From Bifidobacterium sp. ESL0745 (GTDB lineage: Bacteria; Actinomycetota; Actinomycetes; Actinomycetales; Bifidobacteriaceae), in contig NZ_JAQTHX010000001.1 in NCBI RefSeq assembly GCF_029433335.1, positions 496,001 through 560,000 of the forward strand: 64,000 nt of DNA. The letters are read 5' to 3'. Shown here piece by piece: positions 3,745 to 33,367 of the stretch. How positions within the stretch are numbered: position 1 is the stretch's first letter; each line of letters opens with the position of its first letter. Both the position numbers and the translations under genes were made by a program. The notes under the pieces were generated by a model that did no database searches, was not told where the DNA came from, and saw only the letters and a list, made by a program, of their open reading frames with translations.

Positions 3745-4782
3745 TCAGACGAACAAGACCCGTCCCTGTTGCGAATCCGGAACGATTGAGCCGATGGTGT
3801 GGCCGGTTTCGCCCACTGATTCGAGGGTTTTGAGTGCCTGATCCACGTTTGCCGGATCGACGGCCAAAACCATGCCGATGCCCATATTGAAGACGTTGAA
3901 CATCTCTTGATGATCAATGCCGCCGGCACGTTCGATAATGTCGAAAATCGGCGGAATGCTCCATGTGCCGATTTTGATTGATGCAGCGAGTCCTGCCGGG
4001 ATCATGCGGGGAATGTTTTCGATGAACCCGCCGCCGGTGATGTGCGCGACGCCCTTGATCAGTCCGGTGGTGAAAAGCGGCTTGAGTGCCTTGACGTAGA
4101 TTTTCGTCGGGGTAAGCAGCACATCGCCCAAGGTAGCATCGCCGAGTTCGTCAAGTTTCGTGTCGACGCTGTACCCGGCTTCATTGAACAGAGCTTCGCG
4201 TACCAGCGAAAATCCGTTGGAATGAAGCCCAGATGATTCCAGTCCGATTAGCGTGTCACCTTCGCGGATGCCCGAACCGTCCACAATCGCGGACTTTTCG
4301 GCCACGCCGACCGCGAACCCGGCCAGATCGTATTCGTCGGTCGCATACATGCCCGGCATCTCCGCCGTTTCACCGCCGATGAGCGCCGATTCGGCTTGAA
4401 CGCAACCATCGGCCACGCCGGAGACGACCTGTTCCAGAAGGGCGGGGTCGTTCTTGCCGCAGGCGATGTAGTCGAGGAAAAAGAGCGGTTGTGCACCCTG
4501 GGCGGCGATATCGTTGACACACATCGCCACACAGTCGACGCCGATGGTGTTGTGCTTGCCAGCCATTTTGGCGACCACGAGCTTGGTGCCCACGCCGTCG
4601 GTGCCGGAGACCAGCATCGGTTCCTTATAGCCGAGGCTCGCCAGGTCAAAAAGCCCACCGAATCCGCCGATGCCGCCGACAACACCGGGTCGGTTGGTTC
4701 GTGCGACGTGCGACTTGATGCGGCGAACGACCTCGTAACCGGCCTCGACGCTGACTCCCGCTTGTTCGTATGCTTGAGGCAT
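3745..4782 (-). CDS. purM: Phosphoribosylformylglycinamidine cyclo-ligase (AIR synthetase)
   Basis: 345 aa. Closes the imidazole ring of AIR using ATP, the step after PurL. The N-terminus reads [19 protein letters not shown] and is followed by the family motif GTDGVGTK and by [11 protein letters not shown]. Start chosen at the ATG at 4782: it lies one base after the purF stop codon and has GGGAGGG about six bases upstream, inside the end of purF, indicating translational coupling. A longer open frame to 4848 would overlap purF and lacks a ribosome site. Full family length, no anomalies. Confidence 0.97.
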
Positions 4783-4783
4783 G

Positions 4784-6349
4784 CTATGCCCTCCCTGTGG
4801 TGGTGTTGATGGTATTCGTGGCGTTTGCTCCGGTGACGCCGTGTGCATTCGATTCGATGCTGTGGTACTCGTTGTCCACGTACTGGCTTTCGTATTTGGC
4901 GAAATGCGGCAGGCGTTCGCGTTCTTCGGGTTTCAACGAAGCGAGGAATTCGTCTTCGTAATCATCCAGAGCGGTGGGGTAGTCGCCATTGAAATAGGCG
5001 ACGCACAGACCACTGTATGGTGCGTCGGCGTTGAGGCCAATGGATTCAATAAGGCCGTCAAGGCTCAGGAATTGCAGGGAATCCGCACCGATGTACTTGC
5101 GGATTCCCTCGACGCTCATGCGTGCGGCGATCAGTTCGCGGGTGGTGGAGATGTCGATGCCGTAGAAGCAAGGGTATTTCAGCGGCGGCGAGCTGATGCG
5201 CATGTGCACTTCCGCTGCTCCCGCTTCGCGCAGGAGCTGAACGATGCGTTTGGAAGTGGTGCCGCGCACGATGGAATCGTCGATGACGATGACCCGTTTG
5301 TCTTTGACCACGCCGCGGACCGCCGAAAGCTTCATCCGCACACCTTGTTCGCGCAGTTCCTGAGTGGGCTGGATGAAGGTGCGGGCGACGTATTGGTTCT
5401 TGATAAGTCCCATCTCATTGGGCAGGCCACTGGCCTCGGCATAGCCGGAAGCCGCGGAAAGAGAGGAATTCGGCACCCCGATAACCATGTCGGCGTCGAC
5501 CGGCGCTTCTTTGGCAAGGCGCGCGCCCATACGTTTGCGGGCGGAATGGACGTTGACACCGTAGATATTGGAGTCGGGGCGGGCGAAATAGATGAATTCC
5601 ATGGAGCAGATCGCCAGTTGGGTTTTGTCGGTATAGGTCAGAATCTGATAGCCGCTGTCGTTCACGACTACGATTTCACCAGGCTTGATGTCGCGAACCA
5701 GCTCAGCGCCCACGGTATCGAGCGCGCAGGTCTCGCTGGCGAGCACATAGGCTCCGTTGCTCATGCGTCCGAGTGAAAGCGGGCGGAAACCGTTCGGGTC
5801 GAGTGCGCCGATCATCGCATTTTTGGTCATCAGCAGGTAGGCGAACCCACCGTGGACGATATTCAGCGCTTCCTTGAGTTTTTCGATGAATGTTGGCTTG
5901 TTCGATCGGCGAATCAGGTGCATGAGCACTTCGGTATCCGAGTTCGAATGGAAAATGGCACCTTCGTCCTCGAGTTTGGCGCGTAGTGCGATGCAGTTGG
6001 TGAGATTGCCGTTGTGGGCCAGCGCTATGTCGCCGTCGTGGAAGGAGAAGATGAACGGCTGGATGTTGTCGATGCCGCTGGAACCGCTGGTGGCATAGCG
6101 AACGTGGCCGATGGCCCGGTCGCCGGTGAGCCGTTCGATTTCGTGCTCGTCGTGGAACACTTCGGTCAACAGTCCCAGCCCGCGATGGCCGATAAGCCTG
6201 CCGTGGTCGTTGGAGACCATGCCGGCGCCTTCCTGCCCGCGGTGCTGGAGGGCGTGCAGGCCGAAATAAGTCAGGCGCGAGGCGTCGGGATGGCCCCAGA
6301 CGCCGAACAGGCCGCATTCCTCGTGAATGTTTTCCAGTTCGAATGACAT
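4784..6349 (-). CDS. purF: Amidophosphoribosyltransferase
   Basis: 521 aa. Performs the committed first step of purine synthesis, making phosphoribosylamine from PRPP and glutamine. Like Bacillus PurF, it has a short leader before the catalytic Cys ([16 protein letters not shown], Cys12), which is normally exposed by propeptide cleavage. The glutaminase half shows GHVRYATSG and LAHNGNLTN; the PRTase half shows [15 protein letters not shown]. It starts one base after the purL stop and ends one base before the purM start, so the three genes are read as one coupled unit. The 3' end beyond the PRTase domain carries a short Asn/Thr-rich tail. Confidence 0.97.
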
Positions 6350-6350
6350 C

Positions 6351-9300
6351 TCAGGCCTCGCTTTCGTCGGTCGGGTTGGCAGGATCGGTCAGGTTGGCGA
6401 TGCCGTTAAGGTAGGCGGTTTCGGTTGTCTCGTCTTGTTTTGTCGTTTTGCCGGTGAAATACCGAACTCCCGCTTCGAAAATCGGCTGGAACTCGCGGCC
6501 CGGAACGTTCAAATACAGTCCGTTGCCGCGGCGTTCGGAATGTCCCATTTTCCCAAGTATGCGGCCGTCCGGGCTGGTCAGCGCTTCGACGGCGGCCATG
6601 GACCCATTGGGATTGTCAGCCAGGTCCATACTGGCGTTGCCGTTCTCATCCACGTACTGTGCAGCGATCTGTCCATTGCTCGCAAGCTGCCCGATTTGCT
6701 CTGTCGTGGCCACGAACCGGCCTTCGCCGTGTGAAATCGGAATGGTGTAGATATCACCAACATCGCTACCGGCCATCCAAGGCGAAAGGTCGCTGGAGAT
6801 GCGGGTGCGCACCAAGCGGCTTTGATGCCGTCCGATGGTGTTGAACGTCAGCGTCGGCTGATTCTCGCTCGGCTCGACGATGTCGCCGTAGGGCACGAGG
6901 CCGAGTTTGATGAGTGCCTGGAAACCGTTGCAGATGCCGAGCATCAATCCGTCGCGGTTGTTCAGCAGGTCACGCACGGCATCGGCCACGGCAGGGGCCC
7001 GGAAAAACGCGGTAATGAATTTCGCTGATCCGTCCGGTTCATCCCCACCTGAGAAACCGCCGGGAATCATCACGATCTGGCTGGCCCTGATCTCCTCGGC
7101 CAATTGGCGCGAGGATTGTGCCACGGCATCGGGGGAGAGATTGTTGACGATAAGTGTTTTTGGATCGGCGCCGGCCGCCGCGAACGCAGCCGCAGCATCA
7201 TACTCGCAGTTGTTACCGGGGAATACGGGAATCAGCACACGTGGTTTGGCCTTGATCGGGTTGCCGATGTAGAAAGCCTGCCGACCATTGCGATAGCTGA
7301 TGGTCTCCGCGTCCATTCCATTTTTGGCGGAAAGCCTTGTAGAAGAGCCGTTTGAGGCTGTTTGGAAGGTTTCTGCTCTGATGTCCCCGTCTTCGGTGTT
7401 CTCGCTGCGATAGGGGAATATCTCTTCCATCGCCGATTCCCAGACATCCTGAGCTTCACCGAGATCGATGGTCTCACCGGCTGCAGCGAATTCGTAGGTA
7501 GCAGTGGTCGTGCCGATAATTTCGACGTCGAGCTGTCCATCACTTTCCGGTACTTCGGCACTTTCGGCCAGTTCCACGATAAAGGAACCGTACGCAGGCT
7601 TGAACAAGGCATCAAGGTTGATGTCGTTGTTCAGCCTGACACCGAACTGATTGCCTAAAGTCATCTTGAACAAGGCTTCGGCAGTGGCGCCGTACCCGGG
7701 TGTCGAAATCGCGAGAGCTTCGTTGGCGGCGGTCAGTTGTTCAACGGTCGCTATGACGTCGAGCAAATCGTCAGGATTCGGGATAAGCCGGTAGGCGCTT
7801 GCGGAAGCAATATCGTTTCCGGGGATGGGAGCGTTCCCCGCCCTGCTTGTGGAGGTATCTTCGTTCCGTCTTGCGGAATCTCGCCCATTCCGATCCGTGG
7901 AGACCTGCCCACTTTGGTTTTGGGAATCACCGTCGTACCCATATCGCTTTGGTGTAATACGAATGATACGATGTCCGAAACCTTTGAATTCCGGCGATAC
8001 CGTACGCGCCGTGTCTCCGATCGACACGGCAAAGGAAATCAGCGTAGGCGGCACGTCCATCTCTTTGCCATCCTGCTCGAAGCTGCCGCTCATCGAGTCC
8101 TTGCCGCCGATGGCCCCGACCTTCAAGTCAAGCTGGGCACTCAGTGCGCCGAGCAATGCGGCGGTGGGTTTGCCCCAGCGTTCGGGGTCCTGATGAAGCT
8201 TGCCGAAATACTCCTGGAAACTCAGATAGGCGTTCTCTCTGGTGAAGCCGGTCCCGACGAGCTTGCACACCGATTCGACCACGGACAGGTAGGCTCCCGC
8301 GAACTGGTTGCGTTCCGTGATATACGGGTTGAAGCCCCAAGCCATGGCGCTCGCCGTGTGGGTCAGTCCGCCGGGAACCGGCAGTTTGGCAACCATGGCC
8401 TGACTCGGCGTGAGCTGTTCGCGTCCGCCGAACGGCATGAGCACCGTGCCTGCGCCGATAGTGGAATCGAAGCGTTCGGCAAGGCCCTTGTTGCCGGCGA
8501 TGTTGATATCGCTGACCAATGATGTCAAGCGCTGCTTGAAATCGCCGGATTTCCAAGCTTTTGGAACCGTATAATCTTTAGCCTGCACCACACGGACGTT
8601 CTGATGTTTGGCCGCACCGTTGGAGGCGAGGAACTCGCGGGAAAGGTCGACGATGCGTTTGCCGCGCCAATCCATGACCATGCGTGGCTCTTCAGTGACG
8701 GTGGCGATGACCGTGGCCTCAAGGTTTTCCTCATGTGCGTAGCGTAGGAATTTGTCTACGTCCTCGGCCGCCACGTCGACGGCCATGCGTTCCTGCGACT
8801 CGGAAATGGCCAGTTCCGTGCCGTCTAAGCCTTCGTATTTCTTGGGGACTTTGTCAAGGTCGATCTGCAAACCGTCGGCGATTTCGCCGGTCGCCACGGA
8901 AACACCGCCGGCGCCGAAATCATTGCAGCGCTTGATGAGCACGCTGGCATCACGTCGGCGGAAGAGCCGTTGCAGCTTGCGTTCGACGGTCGCGTTGCCC
9001 TTCTGTACCTCGGCACCAGATTCCACCAAGCTGTCGGTGTCCTGCGCCTTGGAAGCGCCCGTCGCCCCGCCGATGCCGTCGCGTCCGGTACGTCCGCCGA
9101 GCAGGATGATCTTGTCACCGGGTGCTGGAGTTTCGCGACGTACGTTTTTCGCCGGTGCCGCGCCGACGACGGCCCCGACTTCCATGCGTTTGGCGACATA
9201 TCCGGGATGATAGATTTCATCAACTTGTCCGGTCGCAAGCCCGATTTGGTTGCCGTATGAGGAGTAGCCCTGTGCAGCGGTGGTAACGAGTTTGCGTTGT

Positions 9301-10427
9301 GGCAGCTTGCCTTCCAGCGTCTGCGAAACGGGAACGCGCGGGTCTCCGGCTCCGGTGACGCGCATGGCCTGATAGACGTAGGCGCGCCCGCTTAGCGGGT
9401 CTCGGATGCAGCCGCCGATGCAGGTGGCGGCCCCGCCGAACGGTTCTATCTCCGTGGGATGGTTGTGGGTCTCGTTTTTGAAGAGAAAGAGCCAATCTTG
9501 GAGCTCGCCGTCGACGTCGACCTTGATTTTGACAGTGCAGGCATTGATTTCTTCGGACTTGTCGAGTCCGCTCAGTTCGCCCTTGGCTTCGAGTTCCTTG
9601 GCGCCGATGGTGCCCATGTCCATAAGTGTCACCGGTTTGTTGGTGCGGCCCAAGTCCTGACGGACTTTCAGATAACGCTCGAACGCAGTTTTGACCACAT
9701 CATCGTCGATATTGACTTGTGTCAGCTCGGTGCCGAAGGTGGTGTGACGGCAGTGGTCGGACCAATAGGTGTCGATGACCTTGATTTCCGTGATGGTCGG
9801 TTCGCGGTGTTCGCCGCGGAAATAGGCCTGGCAGCACCGCGCGTCACCCAAATCCATCGCCAACCCGCGCCGGTCGATAAAACGCTGCAATCCGGCGTCG
9901 TCAAGTTCGTTGAACCCGTCGATCACTTCGACGTCGTCCGGAACTTTGACCTCGGTTTCCAAGGTCTTGTGGATCTCAAGGCCGGTTTCGTGCGCGTCGA
10001 CAGGGTTGATGACATAGCGTTTGATGGCTGCGACATCTTCAGGCGAAAGCTCGCCGTATAACGCATAGATTTTCGCCGTGCGAACGTCCGGACGTGTTCC
10101 TTGGCCGAGCAACTGGATGCACTGGCTTGCCGATTCTGCCCGCTGGTCGAATTGTCCCGGCAGATATTCCACCGCGAAAACCTGCGCACCTTGCAAATCG
10201 GGCAGATTCCGATTCGCCGTATCGACAGGAGGCTCGCTGAAAACCGTGGGAATGGCCGCTTTAAAAAGCCGGGCTTCCAAGCCCTGTGCATCGTATCGGT
10301 TGATGATACGCATGTGATCGAGTCCGGTAAGTCCGAGTACATCCCGCAACTCGTTGGCGAGGTTGGAGGCCTCGACGTCAAAGCCGGGTTTCTTTTCTAC
10401 ATACACACGAAAAACTGTTGAAAGCAC
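6351..10427 (-). CDS. purL: Phosphoribosylformylglycinamidine synthase, single-chain form
   Basis: 1358 aa. Converts FGAR and glutamine to FGAM. The chain fuses the N-terminal domain, two AIR-synthase-like halves ([30 protein letters not shown]) and a C-terminal glutaminase ([18 protein letters not shown] start, GICNGFQAL with the Cys nucleophile, HGEGRF). GTG start at 10427 with AAGGA seven bases upstream. Two low-complexity inserts stand out: about residues 827-879 (Ser/Asn/Arg-rich) and about 1009-1039, just before the glutaminase domain. First gene of the purL-purF-purM run. Function is certain; the inserts are unusual. Confidence 0.96.
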
Positions 10428-25444: not shown

Positions 25445-26647
25445 ATGGCAGAAAAGGAAAAGTACGAGCGGACCAAGCCGCACGTTAACATCGGCACCAT
25501 TGGCCACGTTGATCACGGTAAGACGACCCTGACCGCGGCCATCTCGAAGGTGCTGCACGAAGAGTACCCCGACCTCAACCCGGAGTATGACTTCGATCAG
25601 ATTGATGCTGCTCCTGAAGAGAAGCAGCGTGGTATCACAATCAACATCGCCCACATCGAGTATCAGACGGCCAAGCGCCACTATGCTCACGTGGATTGCC
25701 CCGGCCACGCCGATTTCGTGAAGAACATGATCACCGGCGCCGCTCAGATGGATGGTGCGATCCTTGTGGTCGCCGCCACTGATGGCCCGATGGCTCAGAC
25801 CCGCGAGCACGTTCTGCTCGCCCGCCAGGTAGGCGTGCCGAAGATTCTCGTTGCGCTCAACAAGTGCGATATGGTCGACGACGAAGAGCTTATCGAGCTC
25901 GTCGAAGAAGAGGTCCGCGACCTTCTCGAAGAAAACGGCTTTGATCGTGACTGCCCGGTCATCCGCACTTCCGCTTATGGCGCTCTGCATGATGACGCAC
26001 CGGATCACGAGAAGTGGGTCCAGACCATCAAGGAACTCATGGATGCCGTCGACGATTACATCCCGACCCCTGTCCACGACCTTGACAAGCCGTTCCTGAT
26101 GCCTATCGAAGATGTCTTCACCATCTCCGGCCGTGGCACCGTGGTCACCGGCCGTGTCGAGCGTGGCCGTATCCCGGTCAACGCACCGGCAGAGATCGTT
26201 GGCCTTCGTCCGACGCAGACCACCACCGTCACCTCCATCGAGACCTTCCACAAGCAGATGGATGAGGCTCAGGCTGGCGACAACACCGGTCTGCTGCTCC
26301 GCGGCATCAACCGTGACGACGTCGAGCGTGGCCAGGTTGTGGCCAAGCCCGGCACCGTGACCCCGCATCATAAGTTCGAGGGCGAAGTCTACGTCTTGAC
26401 GAAGGATGAGGGCGGCCGTCATTCGCCGTTCTTCTCCAACTATCGTCCGCAGTTCTACTTCCGCACCACTGACGTCACCGGCGTCATCACGTTGCCGGAA
26501 GGCGTCGAGATGGTTCAGCCTGGCGATCACGCCACCTTCACCGTCGAGCTGATTCAGCCCGTCGCGATGGAGAATGGCCTGACCTTCGCAGTCCGCGAAG
26601 GCGGTCACACGGTTGGTTCAGGCCGTGTCACCAAGGTGATCGAGTAG
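25445..26647 (+). CDS. tuf: Elongation factor Tu
   Basis: 400 aa GTPase that brings aminoacyl-tRNA to the ribosome. [26 protein letters not shown] and NKCDMVDD motifs are intact. An AGGAGG site precedes the ATG. The 167-bp gap after fusA, which contains an imperfect inverted repeat (25305-25338), may hold an extra promoter. A strong terminator follows. No second tuf copy is in the window. Confidence 0.98.
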
Positions 26648-26679: not shown

Positions 26680-26716
26680 TTGTGCCCCGCACTAAGGTTG
26701 CGGGGCACAATTGTAT
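26680..26716 (+). terminator. Terminator of the str operon
   Basis: TTGTGCCCCGC (26680-26690) and GCGGGGCACAA (26700-26710) are exact inverted repeats with a nine-base loop, followed by TTGTATTTTA. It lies 32 bases after the tuf stop. Confidence 0.93.
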
Positions 26717-26736
26717 TTTAGGCCGATTTTGCAAAT

Positions 26737-26786
26737 GTTTGGGATTATTTGAAACGTTTGGGATTATTTGAAACGTTTGGGATTAC
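26737..26786. repeat. 19-bp tandem repeat, 2.6 copies
   Basis: GTTTGGGATTATTTGAAAC occurs at 26737 and 26756 without interruption, followed by a partial third copy (GTTTGGGATTA) at 26775. It lies between the tuf terminator and the accessory locus. No function assigned. Confidence 0.9.
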
Positions 26787-26860
26787 TAAAAAGACAGTAT
26801 CTGAAGCATCCAGGCAAAAAGAATTAGTCAGTTTCCTTTTGCCAAGTGTCACAATAACGA

Positions 26861-26906
26861 ATGCCGTTTTCTTAGACCATGTGTACATGGTCTAAGAAAA
26901 CGGCAT
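26861..26906. repeat. Perfect 22-bp inverted repeat
   Basis: The left arm begins ATGCCGTTTTCTTAGACC (26861) and the right arm ends GGTCTAAGAAAACGGCAT (26906); the 22-base arms match completely around a two-base centre. It lies between the convergent tuf and ATPase genes. It can act as a bidirectional terminator, but no T-tract follows on either side and the perfection is unusual. Confidence 0.88.
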
Positions 26907-26990
26907 GAACTTCTATTTGCTGTGGTCTCTGCTAATTGCGGGAATAGCAGGAGAGAAAAATGCTTATTCCTGAAACGAAACAGGGAAAGG

Positions 26991-29900
26991 TCAGGACTCC
27001 GACTTTTCCACATTCTTCTTTTTCTCTCTAATTTTCTCCAGCATTGTGTCATCCAAATCGATAAGCGTATATAGCATATTGTCGAATTGTTTCTTTACCT
27101 GACGAACATCGTCTGGATCGTTATCGGAATTTGATTCGATCGGTGCCGATTCCGGCGTGTTGTTTCCTGCTTTTCTGTTGCTCAAGTTCTCTTCGAGCAT
27201 TGTTGACAGGGGCTTGACAAAATCGGAGAGAACGGCAGTACGATGATCGAATTTTTTTCCTGGATAAAGGAAATGGTGCTTATCGAACTCGCGTTCATCG
27301 AATGGGCCCATGACTGCCTTGCCATTTTCTTCATAAGGCTTTTCACTGCTTTCAAGTTCGATTTCCATGTCGGTTTCCTTGTTCGTCTTATCTGCATTCT
27401 CTTTCAGAGCTTCTCCTAATAGCACGGTAATGAACCGACTGCAATAGATATTGACATTGCTGTAGGTAAACCAGAAAACTTTTCCATCGATCATTCCGTT
27501 CATCAGCGGCCGCAAAGCCGTTGCAGTGGAAACGTCAAGTATGGTGTCTGAGGAGGATTCGGAATCTTGATTAGCTTCTTGGATGGTCGAATTGCCATCT
27601 TCGGCTTCAGAGGTTTCAGCCTTGGGCTTCTCTTTGTATTTTTCCAACCATTTGTCGATAAACGAATCGAGCGAAAGAAGTCTGTCCGCAGGAGCATGCC
27701 GTTTCAAAAGATTGAGATAAGTGGTATTCCATTTCTCTTGGGCATCGCCTTGTTTGCCTTGTATATCGAACACGATGGCAAGAAAATCATCGGTCCTATC
27801 TTCGTTATCTTCTTCCTGGTCCGTACCTTGGTTTGAAGTCAGGACCAGCGACAGGCTATCTGGACTTGGATTGTCTTCATCGAATGTAGACAGGCCATCA
27901 GAGATGTATTTCATGGGATCACGCAGGATGGTTCGATATATCGAATATGTTTGTTCTGTTCCGTTCTGCGTGCGAATTCTTCTGAAATGATTCAGGGACA
28001 GATCAGAACGGCCTTGCTGACTATTGGAGAGTTTGTCAGCCGCGATCATCAGGTTTTTATGTGTGATGGGGAAGAGTCCGCTTTGCAGGAGTTGGGAATC
28101 GGCGGAAGCCACGTTATAGTCTTGGGACTGATAGAATTTAATTACCGAATCCTGGTCCAATACAGCTTTGTTCTGCGAAGTCTTCGCACTTGTATCATCG
28201 GTCTTCTCATTGACGTCTTGAGAAATGATGAATCTGGCGAGTTCCAGCGTCTGGGTATATTGCGCATTTTCCGGAACAGATTTCAACGCGATGCTGATGA
28301 GCTTCAACTTGCGTTCGTTATCCTTCTGCAATGCCTGGTCATCAGGGACTTTCTTCGCAGAAGAAGCTTTCGACAAGTCCGAAGAAGTGAGGATGATATC
28401 AAACAGATGTGGTGATTGCACCAGTGTGTTGATGATCGGCTCGATACGATTGGAGTACTTGCTGAATATTTCAGGGAGAAAAATATTGCCGATCTCATCG
28501 TAATGTTTTGATGCGGTTCTGATCATTTGTTCTGCTTTATCAGGTTCATCAACATGATCTTGGTGTGCCTTGTCGAGATAACCTCTTTGAAGCAGATAAC
28601 GGAATAGCGAGAGGTTTACGAGGTACTCCTTCGTGAAATCGAAATTCTCCCACTCGTTCAGCCGGAAGATTGTGGCTTCAGCATCTTTGTCCTTCTGGTT
28701 CTTGTAAAAGTCGAAGAAGGGGTCCGCGATTCCCGGGTCGATGACGTGGCGGAAGAAAAGAGTCAGATTTGCCAGATTCGGCGTTCCTTTTATTTCTTTG
28801 CCGTCCTTATCCTTGCCGGCGTTTATTTCCGTGTCGTTTTCTTCGGTGTTTTTATTGACATAGATGACATATGATTTGTCGATGTCTCCCGCAGCCATAA
28901 GGTCCTTGGCCAGCTTTGGATTCGAGGTGGGTTTTTGCTGGTAAATGATGTCGATCATTTCGCCCAGTGAGTATGTTTTTTGCGGTTCGTCGGCGTTGTC
29001 GTCAGTGAGATGGTAACGCTGCACGATATCTTTTGGAAGAGGCGCCTTGTCGTTTTCCCCATCGGTAAGAAGATACTCGAAATCGGCGTTCCAAAGCTTG
29101 TTTTCTTTTTTCCGTAGTTTCGAGATGGCCCCTTTGACTTTATCGACGGTTGTATTTTGTACTGAACTGTCAAAAGCGCTGAGGAATGAGGTGATGTCGG
29201 CGTCCAGAGCTTGGTCGTCATTATTGCCGCGGTCGTTGATTCTATTTAAGAGATCCTGTGCCTGGCTTATCTGATCGCGTGTTATGCGCATCTGTTCAGT
29301 GATGATTTTTCTGCTGCACAGATAGACGTTGTCCAATTTGCTGTGGCCGGTGGGAATACTTTCGAAATCCTCTGAATACACGGCATGATAAATGGCCATG
29401 GCAAGCCGTTTGTCATTGTCATTGTTCTTCTCCGTGTCGGGCAACTTATACATTCGGTATTCGTCGGTTATCGCCTTCAACAAACGCATATCGCTCAAAT
29501 ACTTGGAAGTCGTCTTGAGAACGTTACGGACTTTGGTCTTGGTGGCTTTTGCGGTTCTGCGCTCAGCGTCTGGGATTTTTTCGGCATCGGATGATGCGTT
29601 ATCGCCTTCGTCTTCTGGGTAGAGAAGCCGGTCGAATTCCTGGAAGGACGTGGTGGAAGAGATGATGGGGTAGATGGGGATGATGATATCGAAGAACTTT
29701 GTCCTCGATGTTCCTGGTTGGAATGTCACATAAGACGGATCGTCGTCTGTCTTTTTGGCTTCAGCGGCCTGTTGTCGGTTATCGGATTCGAAGAGGCTGT
29801 CGCGCAAGGCATAGATAAAACGGATGCTGCGATGGTGATCCGTTCCGGTGACGGTCGGAGCATTGTTGAGTATGGAGTTGAGTTCTCTGAGACTGTTGAA

Positions 29901-30770
29901 AATCTCTGACTCATTGAATCTGTCAAGATCTTCGAAGACAATGATGTTCAGGTTTTTGTTGGTTTCGAACGAATAGACGATCTCATCAAGTAGCTTGTCG
30001 AAATAAGTCGAATTCTCCCCTAATTTTATCGAACTGTCACCAAATGAGGTTTCGATATTATTCAGGCTCATACTGATATGGGATTTTTGGATCAAAGAAT
30101 TGCAAAGGAGGCTAAGACCTACTGCGCATGCAATCGCCAAAACCGCATAGATACTGATGATGGCAGGTTCCGGCGTATCAAACTGTTTGAGGAATGTTGC
30201 AATCGGCAGGAGAAGAAGAAGCAATATCGTGAGGGCGATTCCTGAGATGAGTGCCTCTATCTTCACCTTCTTGGGATCGGGCTGGTGCAGGCGTGCGAAT
30301 TGGGAGCGTGGGGCCTGCTCGGGCTCGTTGCTGTAGATAAGTTGCTTGACAATCGAGTGCTGAATGAGTTGGCTGATGGATTCGTTTGCAGAACCATCCT
30401 CTTTTTCATCATCGTTGTCTTTGTTCTTGGTCTTCTTCTTGGTCTTGCTTGGCTCCTCCTGGGTGGGAGGCTTGATGGTCGACAGGGAGATGATTCTGGT
30501 CTGGTCGCCATAGTGAGCGTTCTTGTATGTTGCTGTTTCCTTATTGTGCAAGAGTCCATCGATAACGCTGCTTTTGCCGGAGCCGTAGATACCGGACAAA
30601 GCGATGTTGTGATTTTCGGGATCGTCCAAAGCCTGATAGAGAGCATCCAAAGTCCTTGCTTGAGACTTGGCATAATGCGGTCGGAGGTTTTCAAGTTTTG
30701 GTGCGGTATCGGCAGCGGTAAAATTATCCTCTTCGGCTGGTGGCACCGAGTCGTTTTGTGTTGTGTTCAT
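26991..30770 (-). CDS. YobI-type membrane P-loop ATPase
   Basis: 1259 aa. The N-terminal 300 residues match the YobI/KAP-like P-loop pattern: Walker A SGIYGSGKSS (residues 59-68), two membrane segments inside the domain (about 171-194 and 203-226) and Walker B VFEDLDRF (278-285) followed by SLRELNSILNN. A Lys/Asp-rich linker lies at 108-130. The remaining ~950 residues are helical, charged and unrecognised, with Asp/Glu/Thr-rich loops. ATG at 30770 has AAGG upstream. The inserted membrane segments suggest a membrane-anchored, nucleotide-driven assembly. The gene follows a 212-aa unknown on the same strand and lies close to a restriction-like nuclease, a setting that suggests defence; that role is inferred. 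Confidence 0.8.
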   Translation of the reverse strand: MNTTQNDSVPPAEEDNFTAADTAPKLENLRPHYAKSQARTLDALYQALDDPENHNIALSGIYGSGKSSVIDGLLHNKETATYKNAHYGDQTRIISLSTIKPPTQEEPSKTKKKTKNKDNDDEKEDGSANESISQLIQHSIVKQLIYSNEPEQAPRSQFARLHQPDPKKVKIEALISGIALTILLLLLLPIATFLKQFDTPEPAIISIYAVLAIACAVGLSLLCNSLIQKSHISMSLNNIETSFGDSSIKLGENSTYFDKLLDEIVYSFETNKNLNIIVFEDLDRFNESEIFNSLRELNSILNNAPTVTGTDHHRSIRFIYALRDSLFESDNRQQAAEAKKTDDDPSYVTFQPGTSRTKFFDIIIPIYPIISSTTSFQEFDRLLYPEDEGDNASSDAEKIPDAERRTAKATKTKVRNVLKTTSKYLSDMRLLKAITDEYRMYKLPDTEKNNDNDKRLAMAIYHAVYSEDFESIPTGHSKLDNVYLCSRKIITEQMRITRDQISQAQDLLNRINDRGNNDDQALDADITSFLSAFDSSVQNTTVDKVKGAISKLRKKENKLWNADFEYLLTDGENDKAPLPKDIVQRYHLTDDNADEPQKTYSLGEMIDIIYQQKPTSNPKLAKDLMAAGDIDKSYVIYVNKNTEENDTEINAGKDKDGKEIKGTPNLANLTLFFRHVIDPGIADPFFDFYKNQKDKDAEATIFRLNEWENFDFTKEYLVNLSLFRYLLQRGYLDKAHQDHVDEPDKAEQMIRTASKHYDEIGNIFLPEIFSKYSNRIEPIINTLVQSPHLFDIILTSSDLSKASSAKKVPDDQALQKDNERKLKLISIALKSVPENAQYTQTLELARFIISQDVNEKTDDTSAKTSQNKAVLDQDSVIKFYQSQDYNVASADSQLLQSGLFPITHKNLMIAADKLSNSQQGRSDLSLNHFRRIRTQNGTEQTYSIYRTILRDPMKYISDGLSTFDEDNPSPDSLSLVLTSNQGTDQEEDNEDRTDDFLAIVFDIQGKQGDAQEKWNTTYLNLLKRHAPADRLLSLDSFIDKWLEKYKEKPKAETSEAEDGNSTIQEANQDSESSSDTILDVSTATALRPLMNGMIDGKVFWFTYSNVNIYCSRFITVLLGEALKENADKTNKETDMEIELESSEKPYEENGKAVMGPFDEREFDKHHFLYPGKKFDHRTAVLSDFVKPLSTMLEENLSNRKAGNNTPESAPIESNSDNDPDDVRQVKKQFDNMLYTLIDLDDTMLEKIREKKKNVEKSES

Positions 30771-30831
30771 GGGAACCCTTATTGAAAAATAATTAAGTTA
30801 TAAATAGTATGAATTGAAATCAACGATGAAT

Positions 30832-31470
30832 TTAGAAGATAAGCTTGTCGAAGCGGTTATAGCAATCCACCAGGTCCGTCAGGTGGACGAGGCCACGGAT
30901 ATCTACAAAATCATGTCCTCTTGCCTGCAACTGGCGGGGGTAGAAAAAGGTCTTTTCCCAGTGGTCAGGTAGGGGGCGGGATTCAGAATCGTCGTTTTTG
31001 CCGCCTTTTGATGAACTTCTCCATTTTTCCGGCAAAATGGTTGTGAGCATCTCTTTTCTGGTGAAAATAAGAAAATGAGGTACATAATCCGGGTCTTCGA
31101 CGCTGAGTACGAATACTTCATTATCCTTATTATTGAGTTGGGCTCCATTTATCGAGCACCACGTGGCAATACTATAAGGATAGTAATGCTCTGTTGGCGA
31201 ATGTCCGCCTGAGGCGACGCATATCTGATGCTGGGTACGGCCATCGGTACCAATAACATACATCTGCGCTCCCCGACCCCTGTTGACGGTAACGCCAAAT
31301 GATGCCATGACCGCTGTCAGTGTGCGATAGGCTTTTGTGGCTGTCGTATCCGGTTGGACGTCGCTGTCTGCATCGGTTATGCCGCATAATCGTTTGAGTG
31401 TATCCATCTCCAAAGCGATGGCTTCTTCATCATCGAGTGGCGTTTTATCTGTATCTGTATTTTCCCTCAC
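30832..31470 (-). CDS. Unrecognised 212-aa protein upstream of the YobI-type ATPase
   Basis: 212 aa, soluble, no signal peptide. An acidic N-terminal 45 residues is followed by an alpha/beta-looking core (SFGVTVNRGRGAQMYVIGTDG, VFVLSVEDPDYVPHFLIFTR) and a charged C-terminus. I do not recognise the family. The core alternates short hydrophobic strands with conserved-looking Asp, Glu and Lys, so a nuclease-like fold is conceivable, but no motif can be assigned. Start given as the GTG at 31470; the ATG at 31407 is an alternative, and neither has a good ribosome site. It ends 61 bp before the ATPase gene on the same strand, so both are probably one transcript. Confidence 0.7.
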   Translation of the reverse strand: MRENTDTDKTPLDDEEAIALEMDTLKRLCGITDADSDVQPDTTATKAYRTLTAVMASFGVTVNRGRGAQMYVIGTDGRTQHQICVASGGHSPTEHYYPYSIATWCSINGAQLNNKDNEVFVLSVEDPDYVPHFLIFTRKEMLTTILPEKWRSSSKGGKNDDSESRPLPDHWEKTFFYPRQLQARGHDFVDIRGLVHLTDLVDCYNRFDKLIF

Positions 31471-31676
31471 AGAGAAAAATACTAATCAAAAATATGGACT
31501 ATGTTTTGAAATTCATTGAGAAATTCGTTCCTTCAAAAACATATTTGGTTTCGACAACAATCGGGTTGCCGGGACACGCTCTTTGCTATCGGGAACGCCT
31601 TTTCTGCGAAGATGTATCGCGTGTCTGTAGTACACCTCAATTAATGTATAAGAAAAGAGAAAGTGAGTATGGTGCT

Positions 31677-32639
31677 ATGGCCAGTAAAGTAGAAGAAAAT
31701 CAAAACCCAACGGTTCTTCCTGTCCCTAAGAAAACCGAATATTTGGCTCGCACCTTTTCCCGCACCAAGCGTAAGGATTTCGAGAACTATGTGCTCAATG
31801 CCGTGTGGAATCGTTTGGCGATGCCCGAAATACAACCGGTAAGTCAGCAGCTGGTCATGACAAAAGATCACCATTATTTTATCGATCTGTACTTTCCGCA
31901 AATCAACTTCGGTGTTGAATGCGACGAACCGTATCATCGAGGGCAGCTTGAACAGGATCGTCAGCGGCTTATCACTATAGAGGACACGTTCGGCGCGATC
32001 CGTGAGGATGTGGCCTATCAGTGCTATCGGGTGAATCTGAGTGTTGAAACGTCCGATGAGGTTGAGCGGCAGATTGATGAATGCGTGCGGAAGATAAGAA
32101 ACCTTGTCGAGAGCCGTAAGCAGCAGGGCAAGTTCATTCCTTGGAGATTCGATGGGCGGGAATATGAGGAATATTTTGCCGATAAGGATGTGATAACGGA
32201 TCACGACGATATCACGTTCCCTACCATCGCAGCGGCCTGCAATACAATATTCGGTACTGATTATGCCGGGATTCAAAGGGGCTGTTTCAAGCCGAACACC
32301 TTCGACAACGCCGGTTACAGTGATTATGTCGCATGGTTCCCCAAAATGGCTGTTGATGGTCAGCCGAGGAATAAAAATTGGAACAACACCGTTGATGTGT
32401 ATCATGAGTTCATCCATCAGATGCCTACGGAAAAATGGAAGAACGACCCTGATTTCAAACCGCAGACCAAACCTGATGGCCACAAGCTGATCACATTTGC
32501 GAATATGAAGGACAAGCTGACTGGCCATCCAGGGTATCGTTTTCTTGGGATATACAAGACCGTTGAATGTTTTCCTGGCGGTGGTGACCTGAAAAAACAG
32601 GATGGGAAAGTATTCCATATTATTCGTCCGCTCAATTAG
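31677..32639 (+). CDS. Probable modification-dependent restriction endonuclease (PvuRts1I/AbaSI-like)
   Basis: 320 aa. The N-terminal half reads as a Vsr-like PD-(D/E)XK nuclease: Asp70 in YFIDLYFPQINFG, then ECDEPYH with Glu81, Asp83 and His87, and a Cys-Tyr-Arg-Val strand before a helix. The linker FIPWRFDG leads to a C-terminal half with WFPK (220-223), a Trp-rich NKNWNN, FANMKD and GYRFLGIY (286-293). This layout and spacing resemble, from memory, the enzymes that cut 5-hydroxymethyl- or glucosyl-hydroxymethylcytosine DNA through an SRA-like domain. Start chosen at ATG 31677 (AAAGTGAG upstream); a frame opening further upstream is less likely. No methylase is adjacent, as expected for a modification-dependent enzyme. 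Divergent from the 212-aa gene. Confidence 0.65.
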   Translation: MASKVEENQNPTVLPVPKKTEYLARTFSRTKRKDFENYVLNAVWNRLAMPEIQPVSQQLVMTKDHHYFIDLYFPQINFGVECDEPYHRGQLEQDRQRLITIEDTFGAIREDVAYQCYRVNLSVETSDEVERQIDECVRKIRNLVESRKQQGKFIPWRFDGREYEEYFADKDVITDHDDITFPTIAAACNTIFGTDYAGIQRGCFKPNTFDNAGYSDYVAWFPKMAVDGQPRNKNWNNTVDVYHEFIHQMPTEKWKNDPDFKPQTKPDGHKLITFANMKDKLTGHPGYRFLGIYKTVECFPGGGDLKKQDGKVFHIIRPLN

Positions 32640-32800
32640 TCGTGCCGCGGCGAGAAGTTTTTACGGCTTTAAAGACCCGGAGAATCGCATTCAATCTGTA
32701 AGCATGAAGGAATTGAATCTGTACACCCGACGTGGCATAATTACCAAGGCATTTTATGAATGCAAATCGTTTGAAAAGTAAATGACTAAGGTGACGAGAC

Positions 32801-33367
32801 GTGGCACAAACTAGCAATGACATCAAAAACGGGTCGGTATTGAACCTCGACGGACAGCTTTGGACCGTCACGAAATTCCAGCACGTCAAGCCCGGCAAAG
32901 GGCCGGCTTTCGTGCGTACCACCATCAAGAACGTGCTTTCTGGCAAGATCGTCGACAGGACGTTCAACGCCGGCATGAAGATGGACTTCGAGACCGTCGA
33001 CAATCGCACGTTGCAGTATTCCTATGAGGAAGGCGATACCTTCGTTTTCATGGATATGACCACCTACGATCAGGTCAGCATCCCCAAGGAACTCGTCGGC
33101 GACCAGGCCAAGTTCCTGCTGGAAGGCACTGATTGCATCGTCAGCTTCCACGACGGCACCCCGCTGAGCGTAGAGCTTCCGGCATCCGTGATCTTGAAGG
33201 TCACTTCGACCGAGCCCGGCGTGCAGGGCAACCGCGCGAACGCTGGTACCAAGCCCGCCACCGTGGAAACCGGTGCCGAGATTCAGGTGCCGCTTTTCGT
33301 GGGCGAAGGCGAAATGGTCAAGGTGGACACCCGCGACGGTTCCTACCTCGGTCGCGAAAACAACTGA
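32801..33367 (+). CDS. efp: Elongation factor P
   Basis: 188 aa, full length, three OB-like domains. Rescues ribosomes stalled at polyproline. The modification loop reads [15 protein letters not shown], with Lys at the tip as in most actinobacterial EF-P. The start is GTG at 32801 with AAGGTGA upstream. It is followed 100 bp later by nusB, and efp-nusB-carA-carB run in one direction. Confidence 0.97.

Follow-up and report, generated by a model that had tools for sequence, protein, structure and literature searches.

An insertion between tuf and efp in Bifidobacterium sp. ESL0745 carries a Tmn-like ATPase with a candidate accessory protein and a probable modification-dependent nuclease

What are three genes of defense-like appearance doing between tuf and efp in Bifidobacterium sp. 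ESL0745, and do they belong together? The question was put to a window of 64,000 nucleotides (nt) of contig NZ_JAQTHX010000001.1 (positions 496,001 to 560,000, forward strand), in which a first-pass annotation had placed open reading frames (ORFs) for an ATPase of 1259 amino acids (aa), a 212-aa protein encoded directly upstream of it and a restriction-like nuclease divergent from both. All three frames are open where they had been put, and the suggestion that they form a defense locus is supported by family membership (Pfam PF20693, E 6e-86; PADLOC Tmn, E 2e-37; PADLOC REase, E 9e-61), from which defense activity of the block may be presumed. Our interpretation, held tentatively and at slightly less than an even chance, is that of horizontally acquired defense cargo comprising a nuclease module and a Tmn-like ATPase module equipped with an adaptor or sensor accessory.

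The block is an insertion foreign to the locus. Its G+C content is 0.458 against 0.585 and 0.593 on either side, in keeping with the A+T-richness first noticed by eye, and tuf and efp, which lie 6156 base pairs (bp) apart in the window, are separated by 193–211 bp in nine of the ten genomes nearest by EF-P identity, so that the block does stand outside the local housekeeping order, as had been claimed. The genus sample consisted of 112 Bifidobacterium genomes, with efp located in all 112 and tuf in 111. In the nine short-gap genomes homology to the window ends at about 26714–26718 and restarts at about 32716–32719, and the interior of the block shares no DNA, on either strand, with any of the 18 tuf–efp stretches compared. 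The tenth genome (G117) has a gap of 3189 bp that contains genes for a GDSL hydrolase and a sugar transporter; among the 25 genomes other than that of the window for which the gap was computed, these being the best tuf matches of the genus sample, it measures at most 300 bp in 17. Short gaps in relatives and other cargo in G117 therefore make the tuf–efp site an occasional landing place of unrelated genes. Loci of other bifidobacteria at which unrelated genes occupy the gap are L125 (GDSL hydrolase and sugar transporter), L132 (FMN-dependent dehydrogenase) and L133 (further ORFs without assignment).

The ATPase is of the YobI/Tmn kind. It matches PF20693 (YobI-ATPase) with E 6.4e-86 and 289.6 bits, above the cut-off of 27, over profile positions 3–362 of 363, and two stretches of it pass the PADLOC Tmn model (E 1.8e-37), the better covering residues 40–330 of 1259. 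Walker A is found at residue 60 and Walker B (IIVFEDLDRF) at residue 276, and between them run two hydrophobic stretches at about 168–198 and 199–228, which agrees with the membrane segments predicted earlier to lie within the P-loop domain; these segments were judged by hydropathy only. The Tmn model is likewise matched by all five other bifidobacterial YobI proteins tried, and YobI ATPases exceed the cut-off in 13 of the 112 genus genomes, at 15 loci including that of the window. A search of PDB sequences with the ATPase profile gave nothing useful. The published account of Escherichia coli Tmn (PMC11846954) describes a KAP NTPase whose two transmembrane domains are unusual and which is inhibitory to several phages, and it calls the precise mechanism unexplored; in that work mutants that escape are altered in the DNA-modification gene nmad5, the deletion of which did not remove sensitivity to Tmn. 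Among titles and abstracts we found no paper on Tmn in anti-phage defense of Bifidobacterium. Some relatives differ in gene layout: in several bifidobacteria, at L029 (7043–8590 and 8587–10392), L031 and L032, the YobI/Tmn ATPase is encoded by two ORFs, the first for the N-terminal ATPase and membrane region and the second for the C-terminal one, with overlaps of 1–4 nt that look like gene fission rather than damage, and in Timonella, Leucobacter and Micrococcus (L067, L071 and L086; about 3810–6953) a long ORF, by Pfam a type I restriction R subunit in L067, abuts or overlaps the start of the YobI ATPase.

The nuclease belongs to a different family altogether. The listed ORF of 413 aa begins at a GTG within the 212-aa gene, and the ATG at 31677, giving 320 aa, is the likely start on grounds of homology and layout; this version aligns to AbaSI from residue 20 onward. 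An N-terminal PvuRts1I-like domain (PF21598, E 1.5e-28) is followed by an SRA domain (PF18491, E 1.4e-22), and in the PDB the protein matches AbaSI (4par, E 1e-19) and PvuRts1I (E 1e-16); together with the match to the PADLOC methyl-directed REase model (E 9e-61) these support the earlier call of a divergently oriented, restriction-like nuclease. For PvuRts1I, PMC4027163 supports E20, D57, E68 and E71 as the active site and records an effect for K17, with the reservation that a mutation test of E68 was not possible; the residues aligned to all five are kept in the window protein. W-x-P and W-x-N patterns in the SRA pocket region are common to the nuclease and AbaSI and may be equated, by pattern, with W205, P207, W215 and N217 of PvuRts1I. 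The protein is probably an ordinary, active modification-dependent restriction enzyme. The first-pass annotation had taken a large NTPase, a small unknown protein and a nuclease as one typical make-up, and here it did not hold up: nucleases of the PvuRts1I type exceed the family cut-off in 6 of the 112 genus genomes and YobI ATPases in 13, and the two lists overlap in the window genome only. A single three-gene system was rejected on this count, and the nuclease is an independent neighbor of the ATPase and the 212-aa protein.

The 212-aa protein has no hit above the Pfam cut-off and no match in PADLOC or NCBIfam, a search of 5.8 billion proteins with the single sequence returned only a 191-aa form of itself, and no relative was found in 58 other genomes searched. 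A true orphan can nevertheless be ruled out by a relative upstream of another ATPase and by relatives on plasmids. The former is a 187-aa protein of Bifidobacterium sp. ESL0690 (G119, locus L029), 28% identical over 135 residues and scoring 42.7 bits, against a maximum of 24.6 among 2000 shuffles. The megaplasmid homologues WP_007055017 and WP_052791148 of B. longum and B. breve (four records) are 27–28% identical, and one protein cluster of this type, P0003, counts 461 member sequences. Weaker relatives occur in Staphylococcus phages AH12 (E 2e-6 with P0003) and Machias (E 9e-5 with P0003), and on the Staphylococcus plasmid pSBR1, whose protein has only E 0.2 when plasmids are searched with the protein of L029 and reaches about 1e-14 against the megaplasmid proteins in a direct comparison among eight proteins. 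These three genes lie at L154 2653–3282, L155 2659–3258 and L156 2674–3309 (AH12, Machias and pSBR1); in the two phages, of 264 and 274 kb, the gene is downstream of an interrupted gyrB. In viral_contigs, P0003 has two near-copies, one on a contig of 86 kb and the other on one of 140 kb, and A1 gave no match. The best PHROGs match of the family has an E-value of only 0.011, a Pfam scan of the relatives gave nothing useful, nor did the PDB sequences when the partner profile or the Machias protein served as query, and the viral structure library held no match with E <0.001. As far as titles and abstracts on YobI, Tmn, KAP NTPases, pMP7017, PvuRts1I and I-Ssp6803I go, the partner is undescribed, and passages of PMC10832533 (pMP7017) and PMC10907252 gave nothing on its gene. 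The label "unknown" thus stands insofar as the protein falls into no named family, but the protein is not isolated, relatives having turned up in another Bifidobacterium, megaplasmids, phages and a plasmid.

Its pairing with the ATPase recurs at a second place. In G119 a tRNA-Thr gene lies upstream of the relative's gene, and 58 bp separate the latter from an ATPase ORF that comes after it on the same strand; the G119 ATPase is the nearest row to that of the window (42% over 432 columns). The two ATPases are sisters in a tree of 50 rows (90/58) and the two partner proteins are sisters in a tree of eight (86/91). This agreement fits but does not prove a single origin of the pairing, since both trees flag the window and G119 rows as long or odd in composition.

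A hint at what the partner does comes from the model of P0003, which shows a PD-(D/E)XK nuclease-like fold with an N-terminal helical extension and is best matched by I-Ssp6803I, a homing endonuclease of the PD-(D/E)XK type. With strands assigned from this model, the catalytic D of strand 2 and the (D/E)xK of strand 3 are absent from the four Bifidobacterium rows of A3. By this model the 212-aa protein resembles a DNA-cutting enzyme that has been disarmed, and because the nuclease-like fold has lost its metal-binding catalytic residues it most likely binds something, such as phage DNA or the ATPase, rather than cutting. One could propose instead that the protein still cuts, as an effector nuclease whose active site has moved and whose activity the ATPase turns on, and point, beyond the fold, to E125, D126, E140, D169 and D190, acidic residues invariant in the Bifidobacterium rows; however, neither catalytic motif is found in those rows, and once the three Staphylococcus relatives are added invariance is kept only at D169 and D190, E140 being D in these relatives, so we regard such an effector as very unlikely.

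The coordinates of all features are collected in Table 1.

Table 1. Features of the tuf–efp region in window coordinates
Feature	Coordinates	Strand	Basis or remark
tuf	25445-26647		flank of block
Inserted block between tuf and efp	26719..32716	.	homology breakpoints and G+C
Perfect 22-nt inverted repeat	26861..26906	-	downstream of ATPase gene; possibly ATPase terminator
KAP-type membrane ATPase, YobI/Tmn-like, 1259 aa	26991..30770	-	PF20693, PADLOC Tmn
212-aa partner protein	30832..31470	-	GTG start; directly upstream of ATPase gene
PvuRts1I/AbaSI-like modification-dependent restriction endonuclease, 320 aa	31677..32639	+	PF21598, PF18491, AbaSI match
efp	32801-33367		flank of block

Neither an integrase nor a boundary repeat was recognized in the block. 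The stretch 26718–26985 has no second match in its own genome or in the 111 other genus genomes, save for its own inverted repeat, and therefore no mobile-element end was recognized. Within it, at 26733–26789, a 19-nt unit is repeated three times in tandem between a terminator-like hairpin of tuf and the end of the ATPase gene.

Whether the ATPase and the 212-aa protein constitute a system in themselves, as had been proposed, depends on how often they meet. The partner profile finds members in 2 of the 112 genus genomes and in 1 of 396 genomes of the order, that one being the window genome; of the 396 genomes in a phylum sample two gave a match, one of them (E 0.0038, with an internal stop) discounted as chance. 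Several observations weigh against a system. The partner stands beside 2 of the 15 genus YobI loci and is lacking at 13, and in a wider sample, the best 80 of 252 YobI loci from genome_contigs, it was found at none when ORFs of at least 50 aa were compared with two partner profiles (best E 1.6 and 2). Four of these 80 loci are bifidobacterial by title, two of the four repeating genus loci; in L113 and L117 the sequence stops no more than 350 bp ahead of the ATPase gene, and L065, L070 and L094 are without an intact ATPase ORF. Conversely, a YobI ATPase is encoded in none of the three records of partner-bearing megaplasmids. With 13 of 15 genus loci and all 80 sampled loci lacking the partner, a general YobI-plus-partner system is ruled out, and the two genes largely occur independently, a pattern that the proposal itself had counted as adverse.

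These distributions are also the ground for taking the 212-aa gene as cargo of mobile elements that is functionally unconnected with the ATPase, come to its neighborhoods by coincidence or by hitch-hiking in defense islands: its relatives sit on megaplasmids devoid of the ATPase, in two phages and on one plasmid, and most genus YobI loci do without the family. Against this, both members found in the 112 genus genomes hold the same position and orientation by related ATPases at different sites, and we consider cargo of this kind rather unlikely. What remains of the proposal is the second occurrence of the pair, in another genome and at a different locus, which supports it as a rare, lineage-specific variant only.

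Small genes upstream of other YobI ATPases invite a further explanation, in which the 212-aa protein would be an antitoxin-like or regulatory neighbor, holding the ATPase in check or governing its expression and sensing nothing. In L030 a RelB/YafQ pair (6375–6906) immediately precedes the ATPase gene and in L032 a YafQ gene (9612–9911) does so, while L027 and L028 have upstream gene pairs (about 7083–7800) that are similar to each other, the L027 pair being without a Pfam match; the acidity of the partner, with an isoelectric point (pI) of 5.2, would suit such a role. Yet L027, L028, L030, L031 and L032 seemingly all lie at a single site of the chromosome, next to what we take for zwf, and are not independent cases, and the 212-aa protein has no antitoxin-family match in Pfam or NCBIfam and belongs to a family whose fold resembles nucleases. 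This role we judge distinctly unlikely. The 212-aa protein is best read as an accessory, specific to this lineage, with which a Tmn-like ATPase has been supplemented and which perhaps serves as sensor or adaptor.

On this reading the cargo would work as two modules. In the first, the SRA domain of the nuclease would read modified cytosine and the PD-(D/E)XK domain would cut DNA nearby. In the second, the Tmn-like KAP membrane ATPase, encoded behind its small accessory and presumably co-transcribed with it, would be coupled to infection through the accessory, which as adaptor or sensor may bind phage DNA, a phage product or, by physical contact, the ATPase itself; an ATP-driven change at the membrane would then stop phage growth and so confer anti-phage activity. 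The acidity of the 212-aa protein weakens the version in which it binds DNA. That the nuclease on the one hand and escape from Tmn through a DNA-modification gene on the other share the theme of phages with modified DNA is suggestive only. A bolder and, in our view, fairly improbable form is a two-component Tmn, in which a catalytically dead, homing-endonuclease-like protein, taken over from mobile elements, would sense nucleic acid and thereby trigger the membrane KAP ATPase. If true, it would name a sensor for a defense family lacking a known trigger and present selfish-DNA proteins turned immune receptors. By themselves the nuclease and the ATPase are ordinary defense genes of known families; in a natural Tmn variant whose small subunit is a protein of its own, the sensing and membrane steps would become separately testable, and the partner family connects a chromosomal defense locus of a bifidobacterium with megaplasmids of bifidobacteria and with large phages of staphylococci.

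Compared with known systems, the nuclease has the same two domains as PvuRts1I and AbaSI, although its sequence similarity to them is only moderate (E 1e-19 for AbaSI). The partner family differs from I-Ssp6803I in lacking the PD-(D/E)XK catalytic motif and in the N-terminal helical extension of its model. Megaplasmids of the pMP7017 type encode homologues of the 212-aa protein (WP_052791148 and WP_007055017) but, unlike the window, no YobI ATPase. PF20693 describes a domain, not a two-gene system. With Tmn the window ATPase has in common the two hydrophobic segments that separate Walker A from Walker B in the P-loop domain and, at 1259 aa against a model of 1273 positions, a similar length; its best match to the model lies in the N-terminal third, and its gene sits behind a second gene.
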